NCBI RefSeq assembly: GCF_001625215.2
Contig: NC_030389.2
Coordinates: forward strand, 9,320,432 to 9,384,431
Source of the DNA: Daucus carota subsp. sativus
Lineage: Eukaryota > Streptophyta > Magnoliopsida > Apiales > Apiaceae
Direction of reading: 5' to 3'
DNA: 64,000 nucleotides
In this document: piece by piece, positions 24,179 to 56,618 of the stretch
Numbering within the stretch: position 1 is the first letter of the stretch
Layout: every line of letters begins with the position of its first letter
The notes under the pieces: model-generated
What the model was told of the DNA's origin: nothing
Database searches by the model: none
The model's input: the letters and a program-made list of their open reading frames with translations, nothing else
Position numbers and translations under genes: made by a program

Positions 24179-24680
24179 TGTTGAAATTACTAATGCATTT
24201 GTAGACTATCCAGAATTTTCTAATGTAATGAATAAGATTAATAAAAGGATGTATGATCATAAATAAGACTATTCTAGAGAGTCTTTACAGCTTTCAGGAT
24301 GAAATATAAATAGTCTTATGTACTTCAGGTATTGAAAGAACAATATATTGGAAAGAAAAAAACCATTCTATCTTTTCTAATTGGTATATCACACGCGCAT
24401 TATTGTTTTGTGTATTAGACTATTAGTGGTATCAGAGCCACACAAGGGCGTTGAATAATACTTCAGCCTATAATATTCCAATTCCTGTCTTTGATGGAGA
24501 AAATTATGACTTCTGGAGCATCCGAATGAAGACATATACCTTCAAGCACAAAATCTATGGAACATAGTAGAGGCTGGTTTTACAATTTTAGAAGACATGG
24601 AGAGCCTGGCTCAAAATATGTATTGAACCAAAACATAACCAGGTATGCTGTTGCACTTGTTTACATACAGAGCTTCTTCT
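24179..24680 (+). mobile_element. Copia 5' fragment: LTR, primer-binding site, start of gag
   Basis: The LTR at 24179-24425 is the same family as 7685-8704. It is followed at 24427-24438 by TGGTATCAGAGC (initiator tRNA-Met primer site). A gag start with IPIPVFDGENYDFW and SIRMKTY-like sequence is readable at about 24475-24540, then stops. After about 24680 the germin upstream flank resumes. Everything 3' of gag is missing; the family's 3' half is at 5935-8704. Confidence 0.85.
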
Positions 24681-25276
24681 AAAATATGTAAATGTGCAGA
24701 ATTAAAGCAGCTCATTATATTAAATTTGATTCAATGTGACTGCAAAAACGGCTTTGTTTCCATTGACAAGTTCTTGCTGCGTGTGGTTAACATTCAAAAC
24801 AAAAGAGGTTAATAGGCAAAAAGATCACTGAACTCGTTGTCAACTTGCAATTGAGTTACTGAACTCAAAAAGTTTGCAATTAGATCACAGAACTATATTT
24901 AACTTGCAGTCAACTCACTAAACTAATAAAAATTTAAATTTAGGTCACTGCGCCGTTAAGTACCAGTTGACTTTAACGGAATCCGTTAAGAAAAATAAAA
25001 ATAAATAAAAATTCGTTTTTTTAAAAATTCTGAAAACTTAAAAAAAATCCGAAAATTTTGAAAAAACTTTAAAAAAATGGAAAAATCTAGAAATTCAAAA
25101 ACTATACCTGAACTTTTGAAATTAAAAGATTTCAGAATTTTTACCAAATTTCCAGATTTTTCCTGAACAAAAGGCAGTGTCAAAATAATATTTTTTACCA
25201 AAACACATCAGGAACATTGCACGTACACTACAAATTTTGACCTAATCTATTGGCTGACATGAACTATGTGGCATTC
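24681..25276. repeat. Germin upstream flank, left half of a split copy
   Basis: Matches 54880-55101 upstream of GLP4 (for example GCAAAAACGGCTTTGTTTCC and GGCTGACATGAACTATGTGG), apart from the 360-bp insertion at 24806. It stops at CATTC (25272-25276). The next bases of the same ancestral sequence occur 14.6 kb away, at 39887. Confidence 0.85.
24806..25165. mobile_element. 360-bp insertion with 8-bp target duplication
   Basis: AACAAAAG occurs at both edges (24798-24805, 25166-25173). The uninterrupted site is at about 54988-55000. The insert starts AGGTTAATAGGCAAAAAG and has runs of ATCACTGAACTC; a relative is at about 4178. Ends are not clear inverted repeats, so the class is uncertain. Confidence 0.7.
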
Positions 25277-25464
25277 TGTTGATGATTTTGATACAATAGG
25301 GAGAGAGATAATATATTTGATGGAAGCTTATAATTTTATTAATCAAAAGGCTCTTTATATAGAGCTCGTACAAATCACATAAGCACGATTAGAGCTACAT
25401 AATAAGTTTATAGAGTTAAAAATCTTCTCTAATTAAAGAGACATTAAAACATAAAAATATAATA
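25277..25464 (-). mobile_element. Small LTR element: part of its left (3') LTR
   Basis: Matches the first ~190 bases of the complete LTR at 39650-39886, beginning TGTTGATGATTTTG. It breaks off after AAAACATAAAAATA. The rest of this LTR seems to be at 39007-39050 (AATTGATTCTTT...CCAACA), on the far side of the AHL/CACTA segment. Confidence 0.75.
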
Positions 25465-25689
25465 AAACATATGGTCATCATTGACTACCAATGTCTGTGT
25501 CCATAAAGTCCTAAAATTAGTGTTGATCAAATGTTCAACATCTTGTTACAATTATTTCACAATATTCATTTCTTTCAAGCAGACATAATTTCAAAACAAT
25601 ACAGTATGATCATATATCAGAAGCAAAAGGTATAAATTCAACTTAATTGATCATACTGCAGAGCAGTCATGATGGACCTAGAACGCGAC

Positions 25690-25872
25690 CCAATTCAAAC
25701 ATATAAAACTAAACATCCTTTGCTAACGCGACTACAGTAACATAACTAGCTGTTTTCATGCTGTAACCAGTGCTCCATTTTTAAGGTTACTATTCTGACT
25801 CCCCATTGTAACTACAAAAGACTTCTGAATATTATCCAAAGAATTAGCAACGCGACCATCACAGTTCCCTGA
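25690..25872 (-). pseudogene. AHL 3'-end fragment
   Basis: Matches the last ~60 codons of the intact AHL gene (26616-26780): CTAACGCGACTACAGTAAC, then divergent sequence through TTAGCAACGCGACCATCACA. It joins at about 25872 directly to DNA that resembles the region upstream of the intact gene (28766 onward), so a duplicated AHL copy lost most of its body by deletion. Confidence 0.85.
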
Positions 25873-26615
25873 AATGTGATTATTTAGGTATCTTTGCTGT
25901 TAGTTGAACTGCATTTATTTTTATAGGTTATTTTAAATTTATGTTATTTATATATGTTGGTTAAATTTTGTTATATTTTATGGGTCAATAAGGGGATCAT
26001 ATTTAGAAGAGGAACTATATCTTTATTCATTATGCTCTTACTCGCTCTCACTCTCTGAGCACTAAGCTCTAATATTCGCACATTTAGAAAAAAAACATTT
26101 AAATCATATTCAAACTAAAACACCAATTTTAAAGATGCGATACAACAATCTGTTAAGCCCTAGCACTCTATCATATTGACTCTTGTCTTGTTCCGGCGTA
26201 CTACTAATTGATTATTTGGCAGATGTGATGTAACAATCTGTTAAGTACAACATTGACTTGTTGTGTGAGAGTTGACAGGATATAAACCGGCCAAATTTGA
26301 TTTCATATATTAATGAAGTATCAAGCATTTAGGATTAGAATCTACACACAAGTTAACTGGAAAAAAAATCTAGTCACAACATTTAAATTTTTTTATATGT
26401 TATCAAGCTAGCTAGCGTTGGATTCGCATTCAATGAGTAGCGTGCTATACAAAAAAGAACATGAACAAATTATTTCACAATATTCATATATTTCAAGCAC
26501 GCATAACTTCAAACCAATACAATATTATGATATATCAGAAGCAAAAAAATTCAACTTAATTCATACAGAGCAATGATAATGGACCTCAGACGCTATCCAA
26601 TTCAAACACATAAAA
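25873..26615. repeat. Duplicated flank of the AHL locus
   Basis: 25873-26450 matches 28766-29350 (shared stretches include CTTGTCTTGTTCCGGC and GAGAGTTGACAGGATATAAA), and 26470-26600 matches 25540-25690. These are remains of a tandem duplication of the AHL gene with both flanks. No gene is seen. Confidence 0.75.
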
Positions 26616-27731
26616 TTAAGCATCCTTTGCTAACGCGACTACAGTAACATAACTAGCCGCTTTCATGCTCTTAACCACTGTTCCATTTGTAAGAACATTA
26701 TTCTGACTCACCATCGAAACAACAAAAGACTTCTGAATGTCATCCAGAGAATTAGCAACGCGACCATTACAGGTCCCTGAAAACGAAATTATCTGAAAAT
26801 TTCCCAAAACATCTACAGACAGGGGATGGGACCTCGAATTACCAATGTCAACTTCTGATACAAGTCCGCTACAACAAAGAACCGAAAAATTCAGAGAATA
26901 GTACCTCGCAAATTGTACCAAGGCCTTGATCACATCAGTCCCTGGTTCGAAACTCAGGACCACAGACCATTTCAAGTTCCTTCCACTCAACAGATTGTAA
27001 TTGGACTCCATAGCCATTTCCTCGGTAGCCCTAACAGCCAACATTTCTGGATTGTAGAAAACAGTTGCTGTCAACGTGACCTCATCCATGGTTATCATAC
27101 TGACTGCAGTACCCGAAACGATGTCCCCGCTGAGTCTGCCCAATGTGACATTAAACAAGGCAAGGAGACCGTCTTTCGAGCCAGAGAACAAAAACATCCC
27201 TGACATAGTAATCAGGCTAAGTGGTTCAGTAAATGTTATCGGAGGAGCCTGAGACCCCATGCGAGTCAGATCAGCCCGAAGCACATTTCCACTTCCACAG
27301 AGAATAGTGAGATGAGCCTTCTTTGAGCTGGCATAACTCACCACCCAATCAATCAGATCAACGCCACGTGGCACCTTCAAAATAACCGTAATGGGTGCAG
27401 AATCCTCTCCTCTGGGTTTATTCCGGGATCCACGAGGGCGTCCAGGACGACTTGCACTCGTGTTAGCAACACCCCCTGCATTATTAAAATTTGGGCTTGC
27501 CCCGTTGATTAAATCGTTTTGCGCGGAATAAGCATGAGGCATTGTGTTTGGAGTTGTGACATGAACAGAATTATTGAAGTAATTCATACCGGAAGTAAGG
27601 TCTGATGAGTAAGAGATTGAGAGCTGAGGCGTGAATGATATGTTTGGAGGAAGTCCTCTAATAACACCGGCTCCGAGCTGAAAATACAAGGGTGGATTAC
27701 AGCTGTAAGACAATACTCTTTCGGTTCCCAT
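26616..27731 (-). CDS. AT-hook nuclear protein (AHL-like) with two tandem PPC/DUF296 domains
   Basis: A single-exon 371-residue protein. Residues ~96-106 hold an AT-hook, RPGRPRGSRNKP, that binds the minor groove of AT-rich DNA. It is followed directly by a PPC/DUF296 domain (~112-229; PITVILKVPRGVDLIDWV ... AHLTILCGSGNV ... PLSLITMSGMFLFSG ... LSGDIVSGTAVSM). A second, weaker PPC domain follows (~252-368; LSFEPGTDVIKALVQFARYY, FSVLCCSGLVSEVDI, GNFQIISFSGTCNGRV, VVALA near the end). Known AHL proteins carry one PPC domain, which makes trimers and recruits partners; the conserved GRFEIL core is altered in both copies here (EPLSLI, GNFQII). The N-terminus is Asn/Ser-rich. The nuclear role is inferred. 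A fragment of a sister copy is at 25690-25872. Confidence 0.87.
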   Translation of the reverse strand: MGTERVLSYSCNPPLYFQLGAGVIRGLPPNISFTPQLSISYSSDLTSGMNYFNNSVHVTTPNTMPHAYSAQNDLINGASPNFNNAGGVANTSASRPGRPRGSRNKPRGEDSAPITVILKVPRGVDLIDWVVSYASSKKAHLTILCGSGNVLRADLTRMGSQAPPITFTEPLSLITMSGMFLFSGSKDGLLALFNVTLGRLSGDIVSGTAVSMITMDEVTLTATVFYNPEMLAVRATEEMAMESNYNLLSGRNLKWSVVLSFEPGTDVIKALVQFARYYSLNFSVLCCSGLVSEVDIGNSRSHPLSVDVLGNFQIISFSGTCNGRVANSLDDIQKSFVVSMVSQNNVLTNGTVVKSMKAASYVTVVALAKDA

Positions 27732-27970
27732 TTACTCACTTCATGACAAAATAGGAGCCGTTTTGATGTTTTGCATGTAATTTGAAACGTAAAGAAAACG
27801 TATTTTCAAGCATTTTTTTTTAAATTTTTTTTTAAAATAAAAATATAGATGTTCAACATTTGTTCAGAAAAAAAAATTTGAAAAATGATTTATAAAAGTG
27901 TTTTTTAGACCTCAAAGTACGCGCAAAAAATAAAATCACGGTCATTTTGAAATGAAGAGAGTATTTGTTA

Positions 27971-28004
27971 CTCCCTCCGTCCCATAATAGTGGAACAGAG
28001 GGAG
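27971..28004. mobile_element. 34-bp Stowaway remnant
   Basis: CTCCCTCCGTCCCATAATAG directly followed by the complementary end, with TA on both sides. It is an element deleted to almost nothing but its two ends, in the AHL upstream region. Confidence 0.6.
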
Positions 28005-28166
28005 TATTTGACAAGAATACTTCCATGACATGTCAAATAATTTCAATTAAATAACTATGTAATTTGAATTGTAACATTAATTATATCTTGGAAATGAAAC
28101 AAAAATTTATATTTAAGCGGAACTACTTTTCTTGAAATAGCATTTAATGAAATATGCAAAAGGATA

Positions 28167-28429
28167 CTCCCTTCGTCCCACAATACATATATCTTTTGGA
28201 AAAATTATGTATATTAAGAAAGTATTAATTAGATAACATTTTCTTACTTGTACCCCTAATAAATGCATGCATGTAGAATCTTATTCAACCCCCATTAATT
28301 GTTATACAACTTTCACGAAGGGTAATTTTGGAATATCCACAATTTATTTGCATTCAAAACAAAAAGTGGACAAGTATTATGGGACGAAAATTTCCTCCAA
28401 AAGAGACTTGTATTGTGGGACGGAGGGAG
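28167..28429. mobile_element. Stowaway MITE upstream of AHL
   Basis: TA target duplication. The ends are CTCCCTTCGTCCCACAATAC and its complement GTATTGTGGGACGGAGGGAG. 263 bp, no coding capacity. Confidence 0.85.
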
Positions 28430-31400
28430 TAGTTGAAGACAAAATAATTAAAGTATGATTTATTGAATTTCATACTAGTTGCTTACAATTAAATAATAAT
28501 TGTGATAATTTATTTCAAATGAATAATATATGTTCATAGAATTGGTAATAGCTAAACAACAATTGTCCAAATTTATCTCAATAGAATGATAACAGCTGAA
28601 TAAAGATTGTCAAAATTTATTTCAATGGAATAATATATACTCATAGATAGGATTGATAACAGCTCAATAATGATTGTCAAAATTTATCTCACTGGAATAA
28701 TATATCCTCACTTGGTTGGTTACAAGACTAATTACTAAAAATTATATGTAAGATAATTAAGCGAATATGGGGAGTGAAATGTGATTATTTAGGGTTTTTT
28801 GCTAGTAGTTGAACTGCATTAATTTTTATAAATTATTTTAAATTTATGTTATTTGTATATTTTTGTTAAAAAAAATCATATTTTATTGATTAATAAAATC
28901 AGGTCAAATATCTTTGTTCATTTTATTCTTGCTATCACCCTATGGGACAGTTCTGAAGATACAATGCAACCATCGTTTAAGTCATTGGCATCTACCACTC
29001 GTGTCTTGTTCCGGCATACTATTAAGTGAATATTTAGCAGTTTTGATGCTACAATCTAGTAATTAAGTACCATATTGACTTGTCTTGTGAGAGTTGACAG
29101 GATATAAATCGGTAAAATTCAATTTCATATATATATATGTGAAGTATCAAGCATTAAGTTTAAACTCTATACTTACAAGTTAACTAATAAAAGAAATTTC
29201 TAGTCACAACATTTCAATTTCTCCTTTGATTTAATTAATATTTCTTTAACATTACAATACAAGTTTTCATTCATAATCATAGTGCCAAAATATATTATCA
29301 AGCTAGTTTTAGATTCGCATTCAATGAGTAACATGCTATGCATGAAAAAAAATGTCACAATCTAGTCAATTCAGGCCAGTGTCTCAAAAAACCATTTATC
29401 TCAAGTTCAATCAATATTGTACATTCTTTGTTGTTGGTTCCTTGTCCATAAAATCAACACTAATTCAATTCGACACATCACTTATGTAAGAAATTAAATC
29501 AACACAAAATTATAATTTTTGGTGCAACACACCCGACTTCCTATATAACAATATGATAATATAAGTATATAATGAAAAACAACATAATATCATACTATTA
29601 ATATAAGTCAACAATACTTGTACACAGGGATCATCACAGGCATGAGTATAAACAATACAATCTACAAATCCAAAGTTATTATAAATCAAAATAACTATTT
29701 AAATCTGATTACATCCATTCTGAAAGTTCTCACTAGACCTTCTAAATTGTGCCTTTTCTAGTTACTTAAGCCTCTAGGCATACCCAGACCCTCACGTCGT
29801 CTAACAAGTTACTTTGATGAATCTCATCATTCTCAGATTTCAGTGTAAGATAAAAATACCATAATTGAGCCAAAGCTCAGGAAGTGCAAAATCTCAAATA
29901 AATAGAATTAGTGATAAAATAATAAGACATTTTTGTCAAAAAAAACGTGATAAAAGAACAAGAGTATTAAATAAACCAAGAATCTAGAATAGAAGATTAG
30001 TCAACACAAAAGCAAAATTGATCAGTTATAGATGTTGAATTGGAAATCTGATAAGATGCTACGAATTAAGGTGGGTGATTAGCCCATGACATAGCTCTGA
30101 ACCACATATAATGTGATTCTCAAATATAAAGGATCCTTAGACACACATTGACTTATAATAAAATAATAATTTGGACGGGCATCTTGGTCTCCATCCAATT
30201 CCTTCTAAAATATTTTCATGATGAGTAATTTGATTCTTAATTAACTTTCAAATCCAATACTTAACAATGGAAAAATTCCTGAATTTTATTTAAGCAGGCT
30301 AAACTGAATTATTATGCCAAGTTTCTAATGGATAGTTGTTAGGGAGAAAAGGGTATATGATCTAGTTTTGTTCAGCGTGGAGACTCAATTTATCAAAGGA
30401 AAAATGTTCAAGTTAAGTATAAGGTTTGACGTTATTGCTAGGTAGGGACAACCAAATAATATTTTGCTAAGTTCTATTAGTGAAAATAAATTTCCGGATA
30501 GTTCAAGCTAAGGGAAGTTCAAATATATATGTAGTAAGAATTTAATTATCAGGTGTAAAGCAATTATGCTAAGTGTTGGCGTTTAGGGAAATAATCAGAG
30601 ATGGATACTGTTTGATTACTATGATAGTGAAGTATAGTGTTCTGTGATTTCTTCAATTAGATAAAAGATGTTCAAGTTTCATTATCATGTTACGTGGGGA
30701 CAAAAGTACTTTACATCTAAAGAATTCACTAGCTAGTCAAATAATCCTGTAATAGGATTCTAGATATAACATATACAATTTAGATTCAGAAGAATGAATC
30801 AAGATAGGATAGATTGTACACTCGTCTTACAATAATACTAGAGTAAATACTTATCCTTTGATGATAGTTGTGACTTTTAGAATTGAACCTGAACTCGCTC
30901 CTTGTCGAGTCTCCTACTCAGACCTATGATCAATAATACTAGAGTAAATACTTATCCTTTGATGCTACCCTATATGTGAATTAAAATAAAAGAGTATCAG
31001 TAAATAGAGATAGCATTAATTAAATAAATGAATTCTAGCCTCTCTCTTAACCCTAAATTTCTCCCTCTCTCTTGTCATAGGTTCCGGGGATTCCATCGGT
31101 TTTCACCGGTGGAAAGCCCCGAATCAGTTGATTACTTTGTTTTCTTCTTAGTTTTTGAATAATACTTCTTTTCGGGAAACTTGGATCTAATATCATCGGA
31201 GATTTCATTGTCTCTCTTCTAAGCGCGTGGGTTTCAGTCTGATTCTTGTTTTTGTGGTTCTACTCCAGATCTAATCTCGGGAGAATTCTTAGATCTAAAA
31301 CCATCGGAGATTTTGTTGTCTTTCTTCTCTGTTTCAAGCGGGTGGATTTTCAGTCCGATTTTTCTTGTTTCCGTGGTTCCGCTTCACATCTAAAGTTTAT

Positions 31401-31537
31401 TTATCTTTAGTTATTATTTTGGTCTGGTGTAGTCTCTCCTTCGTGAGAGTTAGGTTGTTTCTCTCCTTGGTGAGAGCTTTGGTTTTTCTCTCCTTTGTTT
31501 GTGAGAGTATGATATTTGATTTGGTGATAAAAACTGT
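28430..31537. other. AHL upstream and intergenic DNA
   Basis: 28490-28700 has degenerate ~70-bp repeats around GATTGTCAAAATTTATCTCA. 28766-29350 is the duplicated AHL flank. 29350-31000 is AT-rich with no recognised element except a ~40-bp direct repeat (30831-30869, 30930-30968). 31020-31537 contains pyrimidine-rich text (CCTCTCTCTTAACCCTAAA, GTGAGAGTTAGG) resembling 5' untranslated sequence of a plant LINE or gene, but no coding frame is present. It resumes after the CACTA element at 35180. Confidence 0.5.
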
Positions 31538-32010
31538 CACTACTAGAAAACGGGTAAAATTGATCGTCATATCCGGTCAAATTTAGTTAAATTTGACCGC
31601 GTTCGGTCAAATTTAGTTAATTTTGATCGGAAACGGCGGTCAGTCATAGCTTAGTGGATTTTAGCCATCTCCGGTCAAATATAGTTAAATTTGACCGAAT
31701 AAAATCGATCGGTTAGTTTTTACCATTTAAAGTTGACCGCCAATTTCGACCCGTTTTCGGTCAATTTTGACTACTGTTTTCAAAGTTCAAATTTTCACGA
31801 AAATTCAAAGTTCATAGTTAAATAAAATCAGAATCCACTAAAAATAACATCCACAACAAACAGAGAGTTCAAGAAATTAGCATCTAGTAGACAAATAGAA
31901 GTAAGTCATCTAAATGGAAGGAAACAACCAAATCAACAGTAAGTCTGGGCAGACGAACACTGAAACTAGCAAGCAAACAAACACCGAGAAAAATCGATGT
32001 TATGGACTAA

Positions 32011-32015
<5 letters not shown>

Positions 32016-32053
<38 letters not shown>
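32016..32053. repeat. (AT)n microsatellite
   Basis: About 19 AT units inside CACTA copy 2; likely length-variable. Confidence 0.95.
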
Positions 32054-32060
<7 letters not shown>

Positions 32061-32588
32061 ATATAATAAATCGAGGTAATTACCTGAGATATAGCCATGG
32101 ATTGAAAGAGTTTTATGACAGAGAATAAACCCTAGCTCTGAAGAGCGGCGTCTGTGAAAAGGCTAATGTGAGAAACGGGAAAAAAGGGGAACTTTAGTTG
32201 TATTTATATATTTGGTAAATATAACTGTTTTCGGTCAAACATTAAAATTGACCGGGCTCCGTAAAAAAAAGGCGAACATTATGGATTTCTTGGCAGTAGC
32301 TACTGGAGTAAAACAGAGCAATCAAATAAAATAGAGCAACAAAACATAGTAATTAAATCAATTTAATTTTAAATACTTAAAAAAAATATTAAGGGCATAA
32401 TATAAATTTGGTTAATTTAGTACAAATTATCACAATGAGTATTAAATACAAATTTGATTAAACCAATAATAAATTAAACTAAATCATCATCATCACTTTG
32501 GTCATCATCATCCATATCTTCATTTTGATCTTCATTGTCAATTGCAATTTGTTCTTCTTCATAGTCATCCAAATGATTGCTTTCAAAC

Positions 32589-33022
32589 ATTGTCAAATCA
32601 ATAAATAAATTGTGGGATCACCAATAATCACTCTTTCCACATTTGATGACGAAGAATTTAATATCTCATTGTGGAAAGCATCTTCATTTGCTTTATTTGT
32701 TTCTTTAGTTGTCAAACTTTCATTTACTTCTCGACTCTTTGTTATTATAATTGTGTAACACGATATCCTTCTCCCCGTGTAAATCTCATTTGGTATACCA
32801 TCGCATAATCCCATGAAGATACAAATCAACTTTCACATCACTATAGGATCTTTGAAATACCTATTTTTACACTTTTGACATGGACATCTCATAAGGTTCA
32901 TCTTCAAGATTATCACAAGCAAATTTAAAAAAACTATCCACACCACTCTTGTATTCTTCCGTTATATATATCAACTCATTGTATCGACTACGACCAACCC
33001 AACTACGATCGGATGTTATCAT
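32589..33022 (-). pseudogene. CACTA transposase-associated domain relic
   Basis: On the minus strand from ATG at 33022 the frame reads ITSDRSWVGRSRYNELIYI, then EEYKSGVDSFFKFACDN, the start typical of the plant transposase-associated domain (Pfam Transpos_assoc). After a frameshift it reads C-Q-K-C-K-N-R, the Cys pair of the domain's zinc-like motif, and after another shift DLYLHGIMRWYTKWNLHGE, the end of the domain. At least two frameshifts break it, and the TNP2 catalytic part is absent. It shows that this family descends from an autonomous En/Spm element. Confidence 0.8.
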
Positions 33023-33335
33023 CAAAATATACACACAATTCAATATAAATGCAAATAAAATAAAATCACAAAATTCTAATTAACTCATACCTAAAATGTG
33101 TACTAATACACACATCTATAGTGATTTCATCATACATGAGTAACATCAAACATTTATACCAATTTCACAAACAACACGCTACACTAATTTAACAAATTTA
33201 GAAAACACAATTTAACCTATATAATTATCATAATTAGGTATTGAATTTATATTATTTAAAGGAAAAAAAAACTAGTAAAATTTAAGTACTAGAATGTGAT
33301 ACTTACTTGATGATCTCAATGATTTGATGAGAAGA

Positions 33336-33341
<6 letters not shown>

Positions 33342-33375
<34 letters not shown>
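33342..33375. repeat. (TA)n microsatellite
   Basis: About 17 TA units at the left edge of the 581-bp tandem element. Confidence 0.95.
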
Positions 33376-33377
<2 letters not shown>

Positions 33378-34534
33378 CTCATGATCAAATAGAAACCACT
33401 CTTAAAATAAAAACTAGAAACCAGTTTCCCTACCACTATTTATAACTATGGGTATCACTAATTTATACTGCCCTAACCACTGTTTTTATATAGTATGTAA
33501 ACAGCGATTTTTATTATCAAAATTGAGAAAATCTACTTATCTAAACTATTGATAATCGATTATAGATGATCAATTTCATCCGTAGGATGGTTTTTGGCGG
33601 CAGGAAGCCGCAAGAGAAGTTGTATGATGATGGGAAGTAGTCGTTAGTTTTGTAAGTTATGATGGAAAGTGTATGTGACTATTGGTGATGATAGACAATG
33701 GTGGCAAGTCATAGAAACGTCTGGTAATGGTGGTAAGAGGTCCATTATTACGATTTGGGTGAAGATGATGGTCATATACGTTGCATATATGTACATATAC
33801 ATATTTATATTCGCGAGATATGCTATATATAAATTAGTGATATGTTATGTACAAATTAGTGATTTCTGTAGTTAAAAATAGTGATAAAAAACTGTCCAAA
33901 AACTGGTTTTTAGTTTTTAGGCTAATTTGGTTTCTATTGGAGTAGGACTCTATATAGGCTCATGATCAAATAGAAACCACTCTTAAAATAAAAACTAGAA
34001 ACCAGTTTCCCTACCACTATTTATAACTATGGGTATCACTAATTTATACTGCCCTAACCACTGTTTTTATATAGTATGTAAACAGCGATTTTTATTATCA
34101 AAATTGAGAAAATCTACTTATCTAAACTATTGATAATCGATTATAGATGATCAATTTCATCCGTAGGATGGTTTTTGGCGGCAGGAAGCCGCAAGAGAAG
34201 TTGTATGATGATGGGAAGTAGTCGTTAGTTTTGTAAGTTATGATGGAAAGTGTATGTGACTATTGGTGATGATAGACAATGGTGGCAAGTCATAGAAACG
34301 TCTGGTAATGGTGGTAAGAGGTCCATTATTACGATTTGGGTGAAGATGATGGTCATATACGTTGCATATATGTACATATACATATTTATATTCGCGAGAT
34401 ATGCTATATATAAATTAGTGATATGTTATGTACAAATTAGTGATTTCTGTAGTTAAAAATAGTGATAAAAAACTGTCCAAAAACTGGTTTTTAGTTTTTA
34501 GGCTAATTTGGTTTCTATTGGAGTAGGACTCTAT
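33376..34534. repeat. Two identical tandem copies of a 581-bp MITE-like element
   Basis: Unit 1 is about 33376-33956, unit 2 about 33957-34537, and they look identical by eye. Each unit starts GGCTCATGATCAAATAGAAAC and ends with the imperfect complement GTTTCTATTGGAGTAGGACTC, flanked by TATATA, so the unit is itself a TIR element. The 68-codon open frame that appears in both units has no known domain. Confidence 0.88.
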
Positions 34535-34555
34535 ATATATATATATAGGAAAAAG

Positions 34556-34644
34556 TTCTACAACCATAGTTGGATATGTTGGCTTATCCAACCAACCCAA
34601 CTGTGGTTGTAGAACAGGTCCCCCCCCCCCACACACACAAACAA

Positions 34645-34686
<42 letters not shown>
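34556..34686. repeat. Small hairpin followed by C(n)/(AC)n/(AT)n tract
   Basis: GTTCTACAACCATAGTTGG and CCAACTGTGGTTGTAGAAC form a hairpin (34557-34615). It is followed by a run of 12 C, then AC and AT repeats to 34686. The open frames crossing it are low-complexity artefacts. Confidence 0.85.
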
Positions 34687-35179
34687 GATGACATGAAAGA
34701 AGAGAAATGGTGGAAAAGGTAGAATAGAAGAGAGAAAGGGAAAGCCGCGTGAATGGCCAGTAGGTATTCAATCTGGGAAGGGTAAAATTGACCAACCCTG
34801 GTCAAAATAAGTAAATTTTTGACCGACTCCAATTAAACATATATTTATTTATTTATTCAAACTTTGTGCGAGAGAATTCTAGCCTAGAAAAGAATTTTGA
34901 CCGCAAACAAATTTGACCGCGACCGGTCAATTTTGATGATGTCATTGAATCAAGCTTTGGCGGGAAATTTCCCTCCATTTTTTGCGGGCCCGTCATTTTA
35001 AAATTGATCGGATAAATTTGACAGAAAACTAATTTGACCGTTTTCGGTCAAATATGTGAGCTGTCAAAATTAATCGGTCAATTTTAGCCTTGAGTTGGTG
35101 CCATGCGAGTTTGACCTTAAATGTGACTGCATTCGGTCAAAAATAAGACGGTAAAAAATACCCGGTTTTTCTTGTGGTG

Positions 35180-35845
35180 TGTTAAGAGATTGCAATTATG
35201 ATCGATAGCTCAAACATGATTAACTCCAACCTTATGTGGAGAAGAGGATGCTTGTAAATATCTCATCTTCAACAAATCGTGTGATTTCATGAATAATGGA
35301 TTAATCGACGATTGTTTATGTTTTATGTTTGTTCGACGCGACTATTTTTGTAGATGCCGTATGGCTTTTCATTATTAAATTGATTTTCTACTCAAAGAAA
35401 TAATAAACGAATTGAATAGATATTAATGAATAAGTGAATAAATAGGTTAAGTAAATAATAAATAAATAAATAACAATTAATTCACCTTATCCTTCACAAT
35501 TATATGATATTAATTTATGAATATATTTATATATAAATGCATTTGAGCGTGCATTTGGACACATATTACTTATTTAGTAATTTTCTTATATATATATTGA
35601 CATGAATGTCATGATTTAGAGTATCCATGTATAAAATAATATGATATTTTGACAATGTATATAGGAGCAGAATCTCGAGATTGAATTTGTTTAGACAACA
35701 TGACAAGGTATTCTGATGAAGGGATAAAGGTTCAACTAAACAAAATTCTCATAATTAACTTTCTAAGGGCAATGATAATAGAAGTTCATTCATCAACTGG
35801 TGTGGCTAGAAACAATAGTGGTGCTTTACAAGTGCTACAAATACA
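35180..35845. other. Intergenic, no gene seen
   Basis: AT-rich DNA continuing the interrupted sequence from 31537. No recognisable element. Confidence 0.5.
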
Positions 35846-37051
35846 TTTTTGACCTCGAGTAATTCGTACACATTTGACAATTATAAGATATATAAGCACA
35901 GTCCATTTACATCTCTGCACTGACAAATAGTACTATGATAAGATTTTCCTTAATGATGTTCAAATTCTCTAACCTTGATCTTGTACAGATGATGGCTGAG
36001 TTTCAGGTTCCATGGCCATAGATACCAATTCAAGGTAATTACTTTCTTGCAGCCGTCTAGATTTGATCCTTGAGAGAAGACAAACTCTTTTGTGCAACCA
36101 CTGTTATATATGCAGAAAAAAAAAGCATTTTGCTAATTATATGTTGTTATTTTGTAAGAACCTTATATTGTGTTTGGTTGTAGAGGAGTGGAGTGCAATA
36201 AACAAATTTAAAAGGAAATTATGGAGGCAGGATGAAAGTTCTTATAGAAAAATGAGTGATTTCAGATTTTTTGTGTTAAGATTCAAAAAGAAAATGGTTA
36301 GGTGGAGAGGGGGGAATTTGTTTTCAAAATGGATGTTAAGAACGGAAGAGAGGAAGGAGTGAAAATTTTGATATATACACCATATATGGTCTGTCCTAAC
36401 ACCGAATTTTCGTTGCTAAAACCATCATTTATGTTATTGTGTTGCTATTTTTGACCTCGAGTAATTCGTACACATTTGACAATTATAAGATATATAAGCA
36501 CAGTCCATTTACATCTCTGCACTGACAAATAGTACTGTGATAAGATTTTCCTTAATGATGTTCAAATTCTCTAACCTTGATCTTGTACAGATGATGGCTG
36601 AGTTTCAGGTTCCATGGCCATAGATACCAATTCAAGGTAATTACTTTCTTGCAGCCGTCTAGATTTGATCCTTGAGAGAAGACAAACTCTTCTGTGCAAC
36701 CACTGTTATATATGCAGAAAAAAAAAAAGCATTTTGCTAATTATATGTTGTTATTTTGTAAGAACCTTATATTGTGTTTGGTTGTAGAGGAGTGGAGTGC
36801 AATAAACAAATTTAAAAGGAAATTATGGAGGCAGGATGAAAGTTCATATAGAAAAATGAGTGATTTCAGATTTTTTGTGTTAAGATTCGAAAAGAAAATG
36901 GTTAGGTGGAGAGGGGGAATTTGTTTTCAAAATGGATGTTAAGAACGGAAGAGAGGAAGGAGTGAAAATTTTGATATATACACCATATATGGTCTGTCCT
37001 AACACCGAATTTTCGTTGCTAAAACCATCATTTATGTTGCTATTGTGTTTA
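35846..37051. repeat. ~600-bp direct tandem duplication
   Basis: Unit 1 is 35846-36441, unit 2 36448-37051 (offset 602), with only scattered substitutions and 1-3 bp indels. Each unit starts TTTTTGACCTCGAGTAATTC and ends near AAAACCATCATTTATGTT. It contains GATGGCTGAGTTTCAGGTTC and a poly-A run. The 82- to 99-codon frames within it carry no known domain and are broken differently in the two units, so they are not called. Confidence 0.88.
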
Positions 37052-37380
37052 AGGCAACATTTTTTCCAATTTCGAAGATGTTGCGAAAATCCATGTGGCC
37101 ATAGAGGTTTTGCTAGCACTTTGTCCATTTTTTGGTAACATAGTAAATAACGTTGCCATAGAGTTGTATGGCAACATCTATTTGGTTAACAGCAACATGT
37201 ATTATACTGTTGCTTTAAAGGTTATGGCAACACCTCTTTTAAATAGCAACACCACTTTTTATGTTACCATAAAGTATAACTAAAATAAAATTATATGGTT
37301 ATGCCAAAACTTTTAATGTTATAGCAACACTGTAAATTAATTTTCTTAGCAACATTTTTCTAAGCTATGGCAACAGGTTC
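37030..37380. repeat. GCAAC/GTTGC subterminal repeat cluster
   Basis: About a dozen GCAAC or GTTGC motifs in both orientations (for example ATGGCAACATC, TAGCAACACC, ACTGTTGCTTT) in 350 bp. This density is typical of the subterminal region of a CACTA element, and it lies just 3' of the transposon-protein relic at 37641-38009. The terminal CACTA end itself was not found. Confidence 0.55.
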
Positions 37381-37640
37381 AAATAAAAAATTTGCAAGCT
37401 TTTGTTTGAAAATTAGATCATCCCTTTATAAATAACAATATCAAGTTTCCAAGCAAACAAACAACCAAATTCTCAAACAGTACTGACAATTCCCCAACTC
37501 CAAAATACATCACATCTTCCAAAATACAACCAGATCCTCTAACTTCTCCAAAATACAAATTCATCATAATATAAAACCTAAATAAAAGTTAATCAAGGAC
37601 ATGTTTAGTTCAGAATACGGAAAATATCAATCAAGGGCTG

Positions 37641-38009
37641 TTAATTACTGCCATTGTTGGCCTGTGATGGCTCAACTGTTGGCTCAGCTGCACTGGTTAG
37701 CTCGATATCGAGATTAAGGCCTGGATTCTTTTCTGCCAGCTTGGACATCATGAGCTTGACATTATCTTCAACCTTCTTCTGCACTTGTTCTTCCATCTCC
37801 TTGTAATTTGATCTCGAATCTGTTCAGTTAAACTAGCCACATACTTCTCTGGAATGGTAGGCAAAGGACGTGCATTTTTTTTTCTTTGGTTCCTTTTTCT
37901 GAATAAGCCTCCCCACTAAAAATGTGCGACTGTGATCCTTCCCACCATAAACAACTTCATCAGCTTCGTCAATTGTTCCATCTTTCAGCAGATTCTCTAC
38001 ATTTTCCTA
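37641..38009 (-). pseudogene. C-terminal relic of a plant transposon protein (probably CACTA Tnp-type)
   Basis: Minus-strand sequence reads ENVENLLKDGTIDEADEVVY, then GGKDHSRTFLVGRLIQKKEP, then after a poly-A frameshift PLPTIPEKYVASLTEQIR. After another shift it gives a charged coiled-coil-like KEMEEQVQKKVEDNVKLMMS and a stop at 37641. The G-K-D-x-x-R-T-x-x-x-G-R followed by a coiled coil resembles C-termini of plant CACTA second proteins (Transposase_24-like). That assignment is from memory and moderate. Two frameshifts make it dead. Confidence 0.5.
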
Positions 38010-38169
38010 TAACAATAACATGCATACATTGAGCAAAAAAATATCTTGATCATCTACAACTACCAAAAATTATTTAAAATAGCAAAACTAAATATCAAGG
38101 ATATAACTGTACAGATTATAATTTATATTTGTATTCTAATTATGAAGTCCAAGAACTTATATGTTCATA

Positions 38170-38882
38170 GGGTCCGGATCCGGTGCAAAAGTTTGCTACT
38201 TAAGTCTTATCCAACAAAAATGGCTTCAGAACCGTTGGATTAGAGAATAAACACCGTGATTTTAAAGGAGCCGCAAACAAAAAAACGTAGCCTATCACTT
38301 GGGCCGCACTTTTTTTCCGCCGATTGTGCTGAGTAAATGCAGACAACATTCTCTAATATTTTCTTGAGAACTAGTCATGATTTGAGAAAAAGAACTGACA
38401 ACCACCATAATCTTTTTTATCAAATGGACTTCGTAAAGTCTCAGAATTTAATTTTTTTTCTTGTCTTCTTCATACTTCTTAAGGCTTCTTTGTCAGAAGA
38501 CGTCGCAGATTTCATTTACAAAAGTTGTGCAAATCACAAATTTGAGGACCCAATGGGGTTTATTCACAAAATCTCAAAACCCTATTTACAACTTAGATTT
38601 CACAGTCAACTATGGCTAAATTCTACAAGACCACTTCTGGGCAAGGCATATCAGCCATTTCTGGGCTGTTTCAGTGCATAGGAGACCTCAGTAATGTTGC
38701 TTGTAACAGAGAGCTCTGCACGAGCCGCAGAAAAAAGTGCGGCCCAAGTGACGACCGGGCTGCGCTTTTTTTGTGTGGCTCCTTTAAAAGCAAGACCGTT
38801 TATTTTCTAATCCAACAATTCTGAAGCCATTTGTTGGGTAAGGCTTATATATAGCAAACATATAAACCGGATCCAGATCCAC
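38170..38882. mobile_element. Pack-MULE-like element with ~165-bp TIRs
   Basis: The left arm (38170-38335) starts GGGTCCGGATCCGG and the right arm (38707-38882) ends CCGGATCCAGATCC. The arms match over ~165 bp (for example GGCTTCAGAACCGTTGGATT against the complement of AATCCAACAATTCTGAAGCC, and CTTGGGCCGCACTTTTTT). Long GC-rich TIRs of this kind fit Mutator-like elements. Between them lies a captured gene fragment (38424-38706). A 9-bp target duplication is not visible, probably because the right flank is a truncated family A MITE. Confidence 0.8.
38424..38706 (+). pseudogene. Captured fragment of a DUF26/Gnk2 cysteine-rich secretory protein
   Basis: An ATG at 38424 opens a hydrophobic signal peptide (FFLVFFILLKASLSEDV-like) and continues DFIYKSCANHKFEDP. 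A frameshift follows, then MAKFYKTTSGQGISAISGLF and QCIGDLSNVAC. The last part is the C-X8-C core of the Gnk2/stress-antifungal domain (DUF26) found in secreted CRR proteins, plasmodesmal PDLPs and CRKs. The capture stops at the second Cys, exactly at the right TIR. Only the first part of one domain is present, and it is frameshifted. The parent gene is not in the window. Confidence 0.72.
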
Positions 38883-38885
38883 GTT

Positions 38886-39006
38886 AGGGCTAAAAGGGCT
38901 AAAAAGTACGACAAAGATACTTTGAAGGTCGAAATGTACGTTTTTAAACTTCGAGGCCGCATCAGAACTTCCACCCAAACTTCAAGGACTAAAAGGTCAT
39001 TAAGCC
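38886..39006. mobile_element. Mutator-like MITE family A, copy 3 (left part missing)
   Basis: Only the right ~120 bp remain (ACGACAAAGATACTTTGAAG to GGTCATTAAGCC). The left part is replaced by the foreign segment that ends with the Pack-MULE. The expected right target duplication (ATAATTGAT) lies in the LTR remnant that follows; the broken left LTR ends in ATAAT at about 25464-25469. Confidence 0.85.
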
Positions 39007-39886
39007 ATAATTGATTCTTTAGTTACAATTTTAAATCAAATCTTCCAACACTCCGTTTTGATTCGACATTGTAAAATTTATTCATAATTTGAAAATGATG
39101 ATGTACTTCTCATCATCACCAAGCATGCGTGGAGCAGTTCTCTCTACAACCGCGAAGCACTTCCCTTTACAAACATGGTACACTTCTCTCCGGAAACGTG
39201 TAGCACTCTTCTCCATAAACATGGTGCACTTCTCATCAACTTCAAATTTATTGGGGCACTTCTCTCTAAAAATATTTTTCTTGGGGCACTTCTCACCAAA
39301 TTTTTTATATCAACCTTTTATATATATTAAATAACACTTCTCCCCATGGTGAAACACCTACAAATTTAAAAAAAAAAAAACATTCTTTCATGGCCACGTG
39401 CGCCATGCACACTCAATCTTGGTGCCTCTTGTTATTGGATCCTCTTGACCCCCTTCATGTTCTTTCTCGGGAGGTTTGGTTGACCCATCTTCAAAATCCC
39501 TTATTTGATTTAGTGTTGATTGTATCCAAGAGGTTGCATCTCCCTCTCAGATTCAATCCTCCACCAACTTGAACTTCTCATGGCGGAAGTCATGACTATA
39601 AACTCACATTGACAGATCCCTTAATTAGAATATTAAAGCTCTAATACCATGCTGATGATTTTGGTACAATAGGGAGAGAAATAATATATTTGATGGAAGC
39701 TTATAATTTTATTAATCAAAAAGCTCTTTATATAGAGCTCATACAAATGACAATGCACGATTAGTGCCACGTAATAAGTTTATGGAGTAACAAATGATCT
39801 TCTCTAATTAAAGAGACATTAAAACATAAAAATACAATTGATTCTTTGGGAGTTCGGCTACAATTCTGAATCAATATATCCCAACA
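39007..39886 (-). mobile_element. Small non-autonomous LTR element (rest of left LTR, interior, right LTR)
   Basis: 39007-39050 completes the broken left LTR. 39051-39649 is a ~600-bp interior. 39638-39649 reads TGGTATTAGAGC on the minus strand, a tRNA-Met-like primer site directly next to the LTR. 39650-39886 is the complete 237-bp 5' LTR (ends TG...CA on the minus strand). A purine-rich CAAAACGGAG precedes the 3' LTR. The interior has no intact gag or pol, so this looks TRIM-like. The open frames at 39089-39572 are not supported as genes. Confidence 0.72.
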
Positions 39887-41039
39887 CATGATTTACACAT
39901 ATTTATGAGCACATATGGGAAATAGATTATGAGGTGGCCGTTGCGGATTTCTATCTATGTATGATACTTGTATACTGTAACGTTGTTAACAGATAGTCGT
40001 CTGTTGTTAATTTGGCTGAGCAAGTGGTGCCAGAGAGCCATAGCAGAAATGGATGGTGATCCTGCTTATAACCAATCATCCCAATTGTAAGGGATGAACA
40101 CCAAAGGATTGATTACAGCTCTCATCTCCCCTTCATACATATATGATGATCATACGAAAGTGCCGGAGGTTAGTCTTTTTGTGCGTGCATGTAAATGAAC
40201 AAATTAAAGGACTAGCTAGTCACAAACATAACTACTAAAGAATGGAGCCTGTTGACAGGAATTGCACTCCAGCACTAACCAGTAGAGGTTGTAAACCCTT
40301 ACATTATTTTTAGTTTTTTACTTTCTTCTTTCTCCATAAAACTTTTATATAATTTTTCATTTCATTCTCTCCACATACCATTCCATCCAAATGAACACAA
40401 TCTTAGTTAATAAAAAACACATTCATTTTATTAACAATTATGATCAACACCTCAAAATCAAGAAAAATGAAGATGAAGAATATTAATTAATTAAGGATCT
40501 TAGAATAACATCATCCAGACGATAATAATTACTCATCCGTCCCCCTCTTTTGTTTACATTGTGGGACGGGGGCTCGATACACATTCTAATGCTCTCATAA
40601 AATATAGTCTAATAAATTATTCTGTATCCTTTTTTTTCTGAATAAATATTTACTATCTAAATTTTTATATAAGAAAGAAAAGTTTCAAAAGAACAATGCA
40701 AAAGTGTTAAAAGAACTATGCTTTTGCCTGTGTATATACAGGCAAAAGTACACAGGCAAAAGTGTAAATTACTCTCATTTACATTAAAAAAGCTTCATCT
40801 TGTGGCGTTAGTCTCATATGTATCATCCGTTCATCGAGTTGTGTTAGAATTGGAAAATAAAAGACTTTAAACACAAAGAAAGTTCCAGCATCACTGCCCC
40901 CTCATATATATGAGCTAGGTTAGTTGAGCAGTTGAGCAACAAAAATATATAGAGTAGGGCACAAACAACCGATACTAAAATTCAAATAAATCTCCTTATC
41001 TTACATTAATAAAAAGCTAATGGGGGCAGTGATTAATGA
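39887..41039. repeat. Germin upstream flank (right half of the split copy) and TPS2 3' flank
   Basis: 39887-40330 matches 55102-55350 (GAGGTGGCCGTTGCGGATTT, TGCCAGAGAGCCATAGCAGA), continuing the sequence that stopped at 25276. 40330-41039 holds only a short decayed Stowaway palindrome (about 40534-40571) and no gene. Confidence 0.8.
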
Positions 41040-41736
41040 TCACACCAGAATAGGATCAATCAATATCGAGGTTATCCTCTCTTTCGTCCGAGTTGAAGAT
41101 ATAGTGTATCCATCATAATCCTCGTAAAGAAGATTTGTCGCACATGAAAAATTGTAAACGTTTGTTAGCAACCGCCTTGGAACTGCTGTTGGATTGAGGC
41201 ATTCCTGATTCATATCCTTCCACGCATTTGTGAGGCGATTCTGCAGTGATTCATAAGCGATTTCTTTTGGAACACCATACTGTTGCATGAAGCACTCAAC
41301 AGCTGATGGTACATGCGCTCTCTTCCTCTCATTCTGCAATTATTGACGTCAAAAATATGTTATGAACTAAGATGTATACTGGAAACAAGGATGTTGAAGC
41401 AATTTTGTTGTTTTCTACAGAGCGTAAACCCTAGTACCCTAACTTCAAAATATATTGTATCTAACCTCATGTCCCACGATGTCGTTACCGAGTCGGCCAA
41501 TTTCAGCTACAGCTCTAAGATTCAAGGGATCTTTCGACGTCCATTCAAATGCTTCTTTAGTTGCCACATTACCCATAAGCACGAAGCTTGTGATTGACAA
41601 CATTGCCATGCCAGCAGATAAACATGCAACGCCCATGTACTCTTCAAACTTTGGAAAGTAGCCGACATGACACCATTTAGCTTCCTGATGATAATGTCTT
41701 ACTGTCCTCTTAAACTGCAAACGGATTATATATTAA

Positions 41737-41973
41737 GGGGCCATTTGGGTAAACTTAAAAGAGTGCTTCTTTTTTAAAGTAAAGAAGTGGACTAGAAGTG
41801 AGAAGTAAATTAAGACTCATAAGTGATTAAACTGTTTGGGAAAAAAAGTAGAAGTCCTGAAACAAAAGCTAGCAGCTTTTTATGCTTCTCGCTTTTTACA
41901 CAAAGAGATCAGGAAAAGTAGAAGTCGGCTTCTTATCGAAAAAACCATGAATACCGTTTGCCAAACAGGCACC
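41737..41973. mobile_element. hAT-like MITE in TPS2 intron 5
   Basis: Ends GGGGCCATTTGGGTAAAC and CGTTTGCCAAACAGGCACC; same family as 17314-17519 but in a different intron from the TPS1 copy, so the insertions are independent. Confidence 0.65.
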
Positions 41974-42289
41974 ACGTATTAAAATAAATAAATAGAAATA
42001 CTAATATTAAAGAGACAATGTTAATTAAGGTCCGTTCCTCATTCGCTTAAGAGACTCACAGCGTTTTTTGCATGATCGAAGCCGTATGTCAGTCCTCCCT
42101 CCTTTACCATCTCTTCTTCGGCTTTAGAAAAAACATCCAGTAAAGCTTGATAACAAACTCTCATGTAATCAGGAAGTTTGTCTAAGCTACTGATATCCCA
42201 CCTATAAAATAGAGAGTTGTAATTAGAAGAGTACTCTGTTACGGAAGACTTTCCTTTCTTTTTTTTGTTAAGTGACTCAAATTGTACTT

Positions 42290-43429: not shown

Positions 43430-43515
43430 TACTCTTCGATTGCATCACTGAATTGTTGCAGTTCTTCAGGTGTTCCATAGACATCGTACATGTCGTCAAC
43501 AATGGATGTCAAAGT

Positions 43516-46053: not shown

Positions 46054-46414
46054 TGTGGTTTCTAACACTGGGTTTCACACAAACACAACTGATATATATA
46101 AATCTGTATATTCTGAGAGAGAATTTCAGTAATGCAAAACGTTGTATTACTTCCTCTAATAAAGCTGAATGCTGAAATACAAATATATAGAAAATGCAGC
46201 TACCTAAGATAATGCTTATTACTCCTACAAACCAGCTACTTACTATAGCTACTTCTTGCAATCACTAAATTAACGCCCACAATCTCTCAACTGCATGAGA
46301 GTTATTCTCCTGTGCTAACGTGTAAAAACAACGTTAACAATTATTCAAAAATCAAACTAAAACAAATAAAAACACATAAGTTTAGATTATAACTCCAACA
46401 TTCACCCCTGTAAT

Positions 46415-50656: not shown

Positions 50657-50672
50657 CCACTAAACCTAGGAG

Positions 50673-50684
50673 CTCTGATACCAA
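50673..50684 (-). other. Copia primer-binding site
   Basis: TGGTATCAGAGC on the minus strand, complementary to the 3' end of initiator tRNA-Met, immediately inside the 5' LTR. Confidence 0.85.
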
Positions 50685-54648: not shown

Positions 54649-56618
54649 GAGTCAAAGAGTCCAGGTATATGCCACCAATTCCAATACAAACAAACAGAAA
54701 AGATACAGCCCGGAAATCTTACATTACATGCCGGCCACTGGAAGTATTTTTGACTGAGGTAGACTGGCAGTGTTATTTTCATACTCGTGGAGACCAAGTA
54801 TTGGACTTGACCTAGTCCCCATTTAATAAAAATTATGAACGTGTTGATATTCAAGAACAGATAAGAGTTTCTTCTGAAGTGTGAAAATGTGCAGAATGCA
54901 GCTCATTATATTAAATTTGATTCGACAGTGACTGCAAAAACGGCTTTGTTTCCATTGACAAGTTCTTGCTGCGTGTGGTTAACATTCAAAACAAAAGGCA
55001 GTGTCAAAATAATATTTTTTACCAAAACACATCAGGAACATTGCGCGTACACTAAAAATTTTGACCTGATCTATTGGCTGACATGAACTATGTGGCATTC
55101 ACACACATTTACCTGAGCACATATGGGATATGGATTATGAGGTGGCCCTTGCGGATTTCTATCTATGTATTATACTCGTAAACTGTATCGTTGTTGACAG
55201 ATAGTAGTCTGTTGTTAATTTGCTGAGCAAGTGGTGCCAGAGAGCCATAGCAGAAGCGGACTCGTCACAAACATCACCACTTAAGAATGTAGCCTGTTGA
55301 CAGGATTTGCACTCCAGCACTAATCAATAGAGGTTGTAAACCCTTACATTATTTTTGGTTTTTTATTCGACGAGCCAGGTATAATTCACAATAAATAGAT
55401 AAGCCTTCTCTACTCACATTGATGATCTAAATCAAATCTTCTTCCTGTTGAATGTTGTAATCACAAGTATTAAGCTATGTTTTGTGTCATAGATTGATAG
55501 ACATGTATGAAAAGCCGGCACACTGTATATAAAAGATCACGACAGGAAAGTGAACCTAGTTGAGAGTCTCAACGATGCATCATATATGTAGTTAAGTTTA
55601 CTACAAAACTCATCAAGTATAATGGAGATTTGAAAATATAGAACTGCAACATATCAAATTACGGTGGTTCATCCACCATTATTATAAATGCTATTATATA
55701 TATGCTAATAATCATGTCTAGTCTTAATTAAGATGTTCCCGCTAAATTCATCTGTTTATAAGGAGTTAGAATTCTGCAGCTGAATGTCCACTAATAGAAG
55801 CAACAGCAATCTGCACATAAACAGGAAAGCCAGGAAAATAAGAATATTATTAGTAAATTTCTCAAAAGCAGCATCATTCTTCACAGTTATATATCTTATA
55901 CTGATATACATGTTTTTTAGAATACCTATACGAGGCTAAAAGATATACTACAGATAGAAATGTTCTGATTATAGGAGAACATACATGATACATATGCATC
56001 AATCTGATTATGAGCATCAGGAACTGTATGAGTCTAGTCTTTGGAGTATATTTTTCAAAATAGCGTACACAAATTTAACCAGCTTTATAAGTTTATTTGT
56101 TAGAAATGCTCAATTAAAATCAAAGTTTCTTGTATGAGGCAGCAATGCAACCTATGTCAAGATATGGTCTTGGCTTGTCAGACTTTGAACACGAAGTACA
56201 AATATCTACTTTCAGAATTCAGAAAGCATGAAGATACTTGTAAAATACTAAAAAGGATCAGAAAAAATAATTTCATTTAATCATGGGAAAGAAAGGAAGG
56301 TGATTCTAATTTTCCTTGTCAAATATGGTTAAACACACACCAGTATAATATCACAATGTACTGTTATGAATATTGTTATCTGTTATAATAATCATTTTCG
56401 ACGAATTCCTACAATAATCACATACTAGGAGCAAGCTGCAATATACAGATATTACAGAGGGAGTAGCTGCATTTTGAATGAATAATTTGTTCATACTATC
56501 GACTTCTTGAACCTTAAATAGGTCATAGGTATACAATGAATATACTTGATGGAAAGTTGCAAAACACACACCATTTCATAACAAAATGCAGGTTTATGAA
56601 AGTGTCAAAAGGACTTAC
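54649..56618. other. GLP4 upstream flank and bHLH 3' region
   Basis: 54880-55350 is the intact reference for the split germin flank. 55350-55730 shows nothing. A likely 3' UTR exon of the bHLH gene starts at about 55814 on the minus strand (acceptor TTTATGTGCAG followed by ATTGCTGTTGC). The rest would be a ~0.8-kb 3' UTR intron. No other gene is seen. Confidence 0.55.

Follow-up and report, generated by a model that had tools for sequence, protein, structure and literature searches.

The 5' flank of a germin gene in the carrot genome (Daucus carota subsp. sativus) is split by a foreign segment that carries an AT-hook (AHL) gene and very probably reached the germin cluster as an extrachromosomal circle, judging from its block order and breakpoints. 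The window, meaning the whole stretch of 64,000 nucleotides analyzed here, is C9:9320432-9384431 on the forward strand, and the genome searches covered 441 Mb in 11 contigs. The segment lies within a small retroelement, beside the remnant of a miniature inverted-repeat transposable element (MITE A). Its relative, hereafter the donor, lies inverted at C9:29717555-29729065 (~11.5 kb), a distance of 20 million bases along this chromosome. Feature coordinates are collected in Table 1.

The two halves of the flank are one sequence, as an earlier note on this DNA had read them. When joined by script, 24665-25276 and 39887-40320 aligned end to end with the uninterrupted copy at 54861-55365 (481 of 518 aligned bases identical), the break falling directly after GTGGCATTC. 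The window flanks also hold ~360 bp (24806-25165) and ~168 bp (40049-40215) that are absent from the uninterrupted copy. Genome-wide, the flank gave four copies at 91-100% identity, one whole and three split, besides four short weak matches (75-84%, about 50-120 bp). In all three split copies the left half stopped at query base 261. The AHL part of the segment recurs at 98% identity 70 kb (c2) and 95 kb (c1) upstream. As the three cluster copies are split at the same germin base, the split arrangement is a real chromosomal state, amplified in tandem with neighbouring cluster sequence. An origin of the halves from two separate germin duplicates, which the earlier note had named as fatal to its interpretation, was excluded by the same base and the same pair of long terminal repeats (LTRs) in all three copies. 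Genome searches with the flank and the retroelement found no germin flank that had retroelement and MITE but lacked the segment.

Compared with the donor, the blocks of the segment stand in rotated order, a feature that was not visible to the earlier note and that gives the mechanism. Window 25457-35667 matches donor 29726872-29717523 and window 35683-38880 matches 29729002-29727600, both on the minus strand. In the donor, the counterpart of 35683-38880 comes first, followed by a gap and by that of 25457-35667; in the window, 25465-35667 precedes 35683-38880. Such a rotation against a linear donor is one mark of a circle-mediated duplication. The AHL part is 83-91% identical to the donor at C9:29.72 Mb. 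Once the donor was rotated, it aligned with the window segment over 9,388 sites at a Kimura two-parameter distance (K2P) of 0.084. For the window copy and the two others the values were 0.084, 0.083 and 0.082 (9,388, 9,368 and 9,798 sites), and among the cluster copies K2P was 0.022-0.036. The source that the earlier note had suggested seeking elsewhere, AHL with its flanks, is represented by this locus; c1 and c2 are sister copies of the segment.

The two outer edges of the donor meet inside the segment. The donor reads ..ATGTATAAAA/AAATAAAATTTC at the low edge and GAGGAAA/ATAAAATAATATG at the high edge (slashes mark junctions), and the closure reads ATGTATAAAATAATATG in the window and c2 and ATGTACAAAATAATATG in c1. 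Since these reads combine the low and the high edge, the donor edges are joined via ATAAAA in all three copies; c1 has ACAAAA, with one substitution. Outer edges joined with microhomology or a short indel are a further mark of circle-mediated duplication. Random joins simulated within the 70 kb around the donor shared 6 bp or more in 0.28% of cases.

The donor order is ancestral, because an element at its low edge runs on to its terminus in the donor and is left at the join in the cluster copies, and because the insert interrupts the retroelement. The low edge lies inside this element (CAGGACCGGTCC.. to ..CTAGGACCGGCC; target-site duplication (TSD) GAATTATC/GAACCATC, 6/8 equal), which we take to be hAT-like. 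It gave 12 matches outside the donor, namely the three cluster copies and nine dispersed ones. Four of the latter cross the low edge, two end there and three cover the right end only; the first two groups (6/9) were examined. Copies on C6, C4:24195714, C5 and C7 continue beyond ATAAAA to the terminus, like the donor, and the one on C2 continues to a degraded terminus. The element thus runs on in the donor and in five of the six dispersed copies aligned, and is left at ATAAAA in 3/3 cluster copies. The reverse direction, from the germin cluster to the AHL locus, was excluded by this element and the interrupted retroelement.

Both ends of the insert derive from one internal point of the donor, as is characteristic of a circle; the left end was recognized in 3/3 copies and the right in 1/3. 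The left ends start ..AAACATATGGTC in c1 and c2 and ..TAAAACATATGGTC in the window. At the right, c2 keeps 370 bp past a terminal inverted repeat (TIR) element that are lost in the window and c1. These match the donor gap in two pieces (79% and 90%), between which the donor is ~0.4 kb longer. The right end of c2 reads ..GGATATATAGAACATA, and the next base is already the first of a complete MITE A (junction C9:9286663/9286664). The donor reads GGGATATATAACATACATATGGTAATC through the opening point, with an extra CATA. Of the right third of the insert, parts were searched in the genome, with the opening-point and high-edge queries. Bases 1-170 of the donor query matched the c2 right end, up to one base before the MITE, and bases 161-331 matched the three left ends, an overlap of 10 bp. 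Otherwise the query gave its own locus and four 64-bp matches. Independent breaks at most 10 bp apart on an 11.5-kb unit have a chance of about 0.002. The insert ends coincide on the donor and therefore bear the mark of a circle.

The landing site was already layered. The LTR parts 25277-25464 and 39007-39050 are identical to 39650-39886 at 207/225 aligned bases, confirming the earlier view that a small LTR element was inserted first and later split. It is oriented on the minus strand and TGGTATTAGAGC directly adjoins one LTR. We take this to be a Met-tRNA primer-binding site, and hence the element to be like a terminal-repeat retrotransposon in miniature (TRIM). It has short LTRs (TG..CA), the primer-binding site beside one of them and no coding capacity, as judged from the listed frames (the longest in the interior being 100 aa stop to stop). 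The five bases flanking it, compared for a duplication, are CATTC at the left and CATGA at the right (3/5 equal).

MITE A has long TIRs with the termini GGCTTAATG...CATTAAGCC and is Mutator-like, because its three other copies in the window all have 9-bp target duplications (ATACATATT and TAGTGGATT exact, AAAAATTRA with one mismatch). The family is large, with 373 candidates in the genome, of which 40 were scored. In c2 the MITE is whole (9286664-9287121), its right duplication reading ATATTTGAT against ATAATTGAT in the window. A family A MITE was in the left LTR before the segment, as the earlier note had it. That the segment replaced the left part of the MITE does not hold, since in c2 the whole MITE abuts the segment end. 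A MITE arriving after the segment was rejected, the right 9-mer ATAATTGAT not being present on its left. The right junction that the earlier note took for the insertion point is instead a later deletion of ~0.7 kb. The window and c1 have this junction in common (ACGTT/AGGGCT), and these two of the three copies have lost the final 370 bp of the segment together with the initial part of the MITE.

We propose that a ~11.5-kb stretch of the AHL locus was copied out or excised as a circle, which would have been closed by microhomology-mediated end joining. The circle would have opened at about C9:29726860 and been ligated into the TRIM LTR exactly at the end of the resident Mutator-type MITE, at a break presumably made there by transposase. 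The whole arrangement was then amplified in tandem with the germin/terpene-synthase cluster to three copies, and the 0.7-kb deletion carried by the window copy and c1 followed.

How the circle was joined is less certain. One MITE end, cut from the chromosome, may have attacked the circle with a 9-bp stagger (one-ended transposition), which would account for the resemblance of the 9-mer at one insert end, TAAAACATA in the window, to that at the other, TAGAACATA in c2 (8/9 equal). Only tentatively do we suggest that the non-autonomous Mutator-type MITE captured the circle in this way, and that dispersed MITEs may serve as docking points for gene-carrying circles. In c2, the MITE end is complete (0 bases lost); the left duplication lacks 4-5 bases, with the LTR ending at ATAA(T). 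These missing bases would suit a plain end-joining capture of the linearised circle, at a MITE-edge break from failed excision or from hairpin cleavage of the long TIR, and no duplication at the insert ends is required should the donor state be the ancestral one. The intact MITE end, however, is more in keeping with a transposon end that was protected than with an exposed break, and plain capture is possible but on the unlikely side. Homologous recombination of a circle-borne MITE with the one in the LTR, followed by excision of the left MITE, is rather unlikely. A comparable landing is described for SVA elements in the accessible part of PMC9132208. Here, the inner TAAAACATA/TAGAACATA and outer ATAAT.../ATAATTGAT form the pattern expected from two nested MITE duplications, and ACATACATA in the donor could be an excision footprint. 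Yet a MITE is absent both from the donor opening and, in all three copies, from the left end of the insert, and an extra insertion and excision would be required.

Several observations weigh against a circle or against parts of this account. The right integration junction is preserved only in c2, one of the three copies. Around the left junction, c1 and c2 agree at 99.4% of bases, and gene conversion may therefore have made it uniform. The donor reads ACATACATATGG at the opening; if this is ancestral, the overlap of the insert ends is ~1 bp and a true 9-bp duplication would not be needed. The TRIM is necessarily older than the insert, but the divergence of its LTRs (0.080, 0.082 and 0.051, standard error (SE) about 0.02) is not above that of donor and insert (0.082-0.084); the shortfall is within error for two copies and ~1.8 SE for c2. 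One of the six hAT-like copies (C4:27468287) also loses homology at the A-rich low-edge place, and such a loss can therefore occur with no circle involved. For the high edge, the genome has no relatives elsewhere, and this edge gives no independent evidence of direction. In the rotated alignment, the donor offers nothing opposite 5/27 bins (~500 bp) of the window segment; they fall where c1, c2 and the donor lack sequence or hold a single copy. Finally, we infer the circle itself, and none was observed.

Against the circle stands template switching during break repair, by synthesis-dependent strand annealing (SDSA), microhomology-mediated break-induced replication (MMBIR) or fork stalling and template switching (FoSTeS). 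Copying would have begun at 29726860 and proceeded to 29717555; at ATAAAA it would have switched back by 11.5 kb, to 29729065, and from there have run down to the start. Microhomology at the switch agrees with this, as does the retained donor that a copying mechanism would leave, but nothing would stop the second tract at the start of the first, a coincidence within 10 bp with a chance near 0.002. A circular template would remove this coincidence, and we consider linear template switching improbable. Still less probable is that the donor locus formerly contained two units in tandem, from which one phase-shifted unit moved in linear form. Tandem amplification is common in the cluster and the AHL locus is partly duplicated internally; no second unit was found, however, in the 70 kb around the donor, where the matches were a 158-bp AHL piece, the internal AHL duplication and short or simple repeats, and a length of exactly one unit normally implies a circle. 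An assembly artefact or chance juxtaposition has next to no probability: dense repeats and tandem duplicates could favour one here, but the junctions are common to three copies that differ from each other by the K2P given above.

Of the three sources that the earlier note gave for the segment, the transposed gene segment was the correct one, and the assembly join is contradicted because three diverged copies have the same junctions. As it had stated, the large segment has no terminal repeats. Its interpretation was thus right about the order of insertions and the foreign segment, and wrong about MITE replacement and the assembly join.

Known classes of gene movement were also considered. Helitron capture (5' TC, 3' CTRR, A/T insertion) was rejected, the ends reading ..ACATATGG at the left and ..AGAACATA followed by the MITE at the right. 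A MULE (Mutator-like element) macrotransposon or composite, expected to have TIRs at both insert ends and a matching 9-bp TSD, was rejected with a MITE on the right only and no TIR at the left end. Flanking-repeat circle transposition (the model of PMC2869330), in which direct repeats around the insert match the target, was rejected too: among the listed repeats of at least 60 bp, only the TRIM LTRs flank the insert, and these are halves of one older element. A retrogene was rejected on its unfit termini and because the insert has non-coding flanks and nested transposons in common with the donor.

Table 1 Features of the split germin flank and its insert, in window positions.
Feature	Position	Strand	Remarks
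Left half, germin 5' flank	24665..25276	+	with further ~360-bp insert
Left LTR of TRIM-like element, first part	25277..25464	-	LTR begins TG after GTGGCATTC; TGGTATTAGAGC adjoins the other LTR
Left integration junction	25464..25472		c1, c2 AAAAATATAA/ACATATGG; window AAAAATATAA/TAAAACATATGG
Putative circle-derived segment	25465..38885		source C9:29.7176-29.7291 Mb, order rotated vs donor
AHL gene	26616..27731	-	single 371-aa frame, PCC domain
CACTA-like element	31538..35179	+	TSD TGT; homologous stretch in donor
Putative circle closure junction	35631..35636		two donor outer edges meet at 6-bp microhomology ATAAAA
Non-autonomous TIR (MULE-like) element	38170..38880	+	also in donor
Deletion junction, later event	38885..38886		~0.7 kb lost; in window and c1, not c2
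MITE A, remaining right end	38886..39006	-	complete in c2 at C9:9286664-9287121
Left LTR, rest	39007..39050	-	starts with right-hand 9-bp MITE duplication ATAATTGAT
TRIM interior	39051..39649	-	sequence comparison; repeated family in genome
Right LTR of TRIM	39650..39886	-	LTR comparison
Right half, germin 5' flank	39887..40330	+	sequence comparison
Uninterrupted flank copy (empty site)	54861..55365	+	upstream of germin gene 53768-54391

The AHL gene recognized by the earlier note is borne out by its PCC domain. The frame 26616-27731 has two stretches of PCC domain within a single exon, and the donor protein is similar over its full length. The frame is intact in the window (371 aa), the donor (373 aa) and c1 (373 aa), and shifted in c2 by a 4-bp insertion. 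Donor and window differ by 42 nonsynonymous and 30 synonymous changes (ratio of nonsynonymous to synonymous rates, dN/dS, 0.42).

The CACTA element that had been noticed in the segment was likewise recovered, as a CACTA-like element with its TSD. At 33370-34537 its TA tract contains a head-to-tail pair of ~581-bp units that are 100% identical. They have no counterpart in c1, c2 or the donor, and the window copy therefore probably gained about 1.2 kb there. At 36378-38157 lies a further ~1.8 kb, including a second ~602-bp unit 98% like its neighbour; the unit is single in c1, c2 and the donor, and the rest of the ~1.8 kb is absent there. What the earlier note called a Pack-MULE is indeed a TIR (MULE-like) element, at 38170-38880, with a 9-bp TSD (ATGTTCATA/ACGTTCATA, one mismatch) visible in c2 and not in the window. 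Gene capture, the "Pack" of the name, is unproven, since a Pfam scan of its 114-aa open reading frame gave no match.

The neighbour of the donor is a PTR2-family transporter gene. About 4.8 kb past the donor high edge, at C9:29733870-29747756, a 2,481-bp repeat occurs twice in identical form at a spacing of 11.4 kb; the two are probably the LTRs of one element. A tandem unit based on the 11.4-kb spacing was rejected, as it is this pair of identical 2.5-kb repeats.

Amplification to three copies took place together with the germin/terpene-synthase cluster. Between germin-cluster repeats, at C9:9307906-9311322, is a tandem array with a ~176-bp period and roughly 19 units. Terpene-synthase coding pieces with an inverted related stretch occur at 15421-18084 and 41068-43509, ~25 kb apart, and are probably gene remnants. 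An LTR element at 46054-51032 is presumably of the Copia type. Its 347-bp LTRs are 100% identical, ATTTT appears to be its TSD, and a frame of 1,414 aa runs without interruption on the minus strand; we regard it as a recent insertion.

Gene movement to non-homologous positions is an old question in plants, and circles were proposed earlier (PMC2869330). In the carrot case, a single genome shows the closure, opening, landing site, donor and empty site, and the circle route thereby becomes testable in plants. Should circles land preferentially at MITE ends, rotated duplications abutting MITE termini are expected genome-wide, a simple test. A rotated circle-derived insertion in a plant was not found in the literature besides the proposal PMC2869330, nor was a circle landing at a MITE end found in print, in a search outside which most subscription journals lay. 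An Arabidopsis paper on extrachromosomal circular DNA (PMC10462705) names, in its accessible part, only yeast, cattle and cancer cells for a suggested integration of such DNA.

As far as the accessible parts of the respective papers go, rotated order and microhomology at the joins are the marks by which circle-mediated segmental duplication has been described in humans (PMC7450558, PMC7188851). The human cases have in common with ours the order shift, the retained donor and, where the circle was closed and integrated, microhomology or short indels. Ours differs in being a plant segment of ~11.5 kb, landing exactly at the terminus of a DNA-transposon MITE, and in its later cluster amplification. 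The cattle KIT colour-sidedness translocation (Durkin 2012, via PMC3927395) is also a gene-carrying segment with reshuffled order and microhomology-mediated joining, but it spans 492 kb, moved between chromosomes and has no transposon end described at the site in the text of PMC3927395 at hand. Region B of Zygosaccharomyces bailii in wine yeast (PMC3053389) shows circularly permuted inserts and non-homologous integration, with little or no similarity at the breakpoints; it was horizontally acquired and exists in several permutations, whereas here one permutation was copied in tandem. For Arabidopsis gene transposition (PMC2869330), circles were likewise proposed as the gene vehicle in plants. 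That proposal rests on flanking direct repeats and homologous integration; here none flank the insert, and the rotation itself is visible. Circle reintegration of SVA elements in great apes (PMC9132208) resembles our case in the transposon at the integration point and in the inner and outer target duplications. In that system two recombinant SVA copies flank the insert, and here one MITE stands on one side. Set beside these systems, the carrot segment appears to bear the features by which circle-mediated duplication is recognized, and to add a transposon terminus as landing site.

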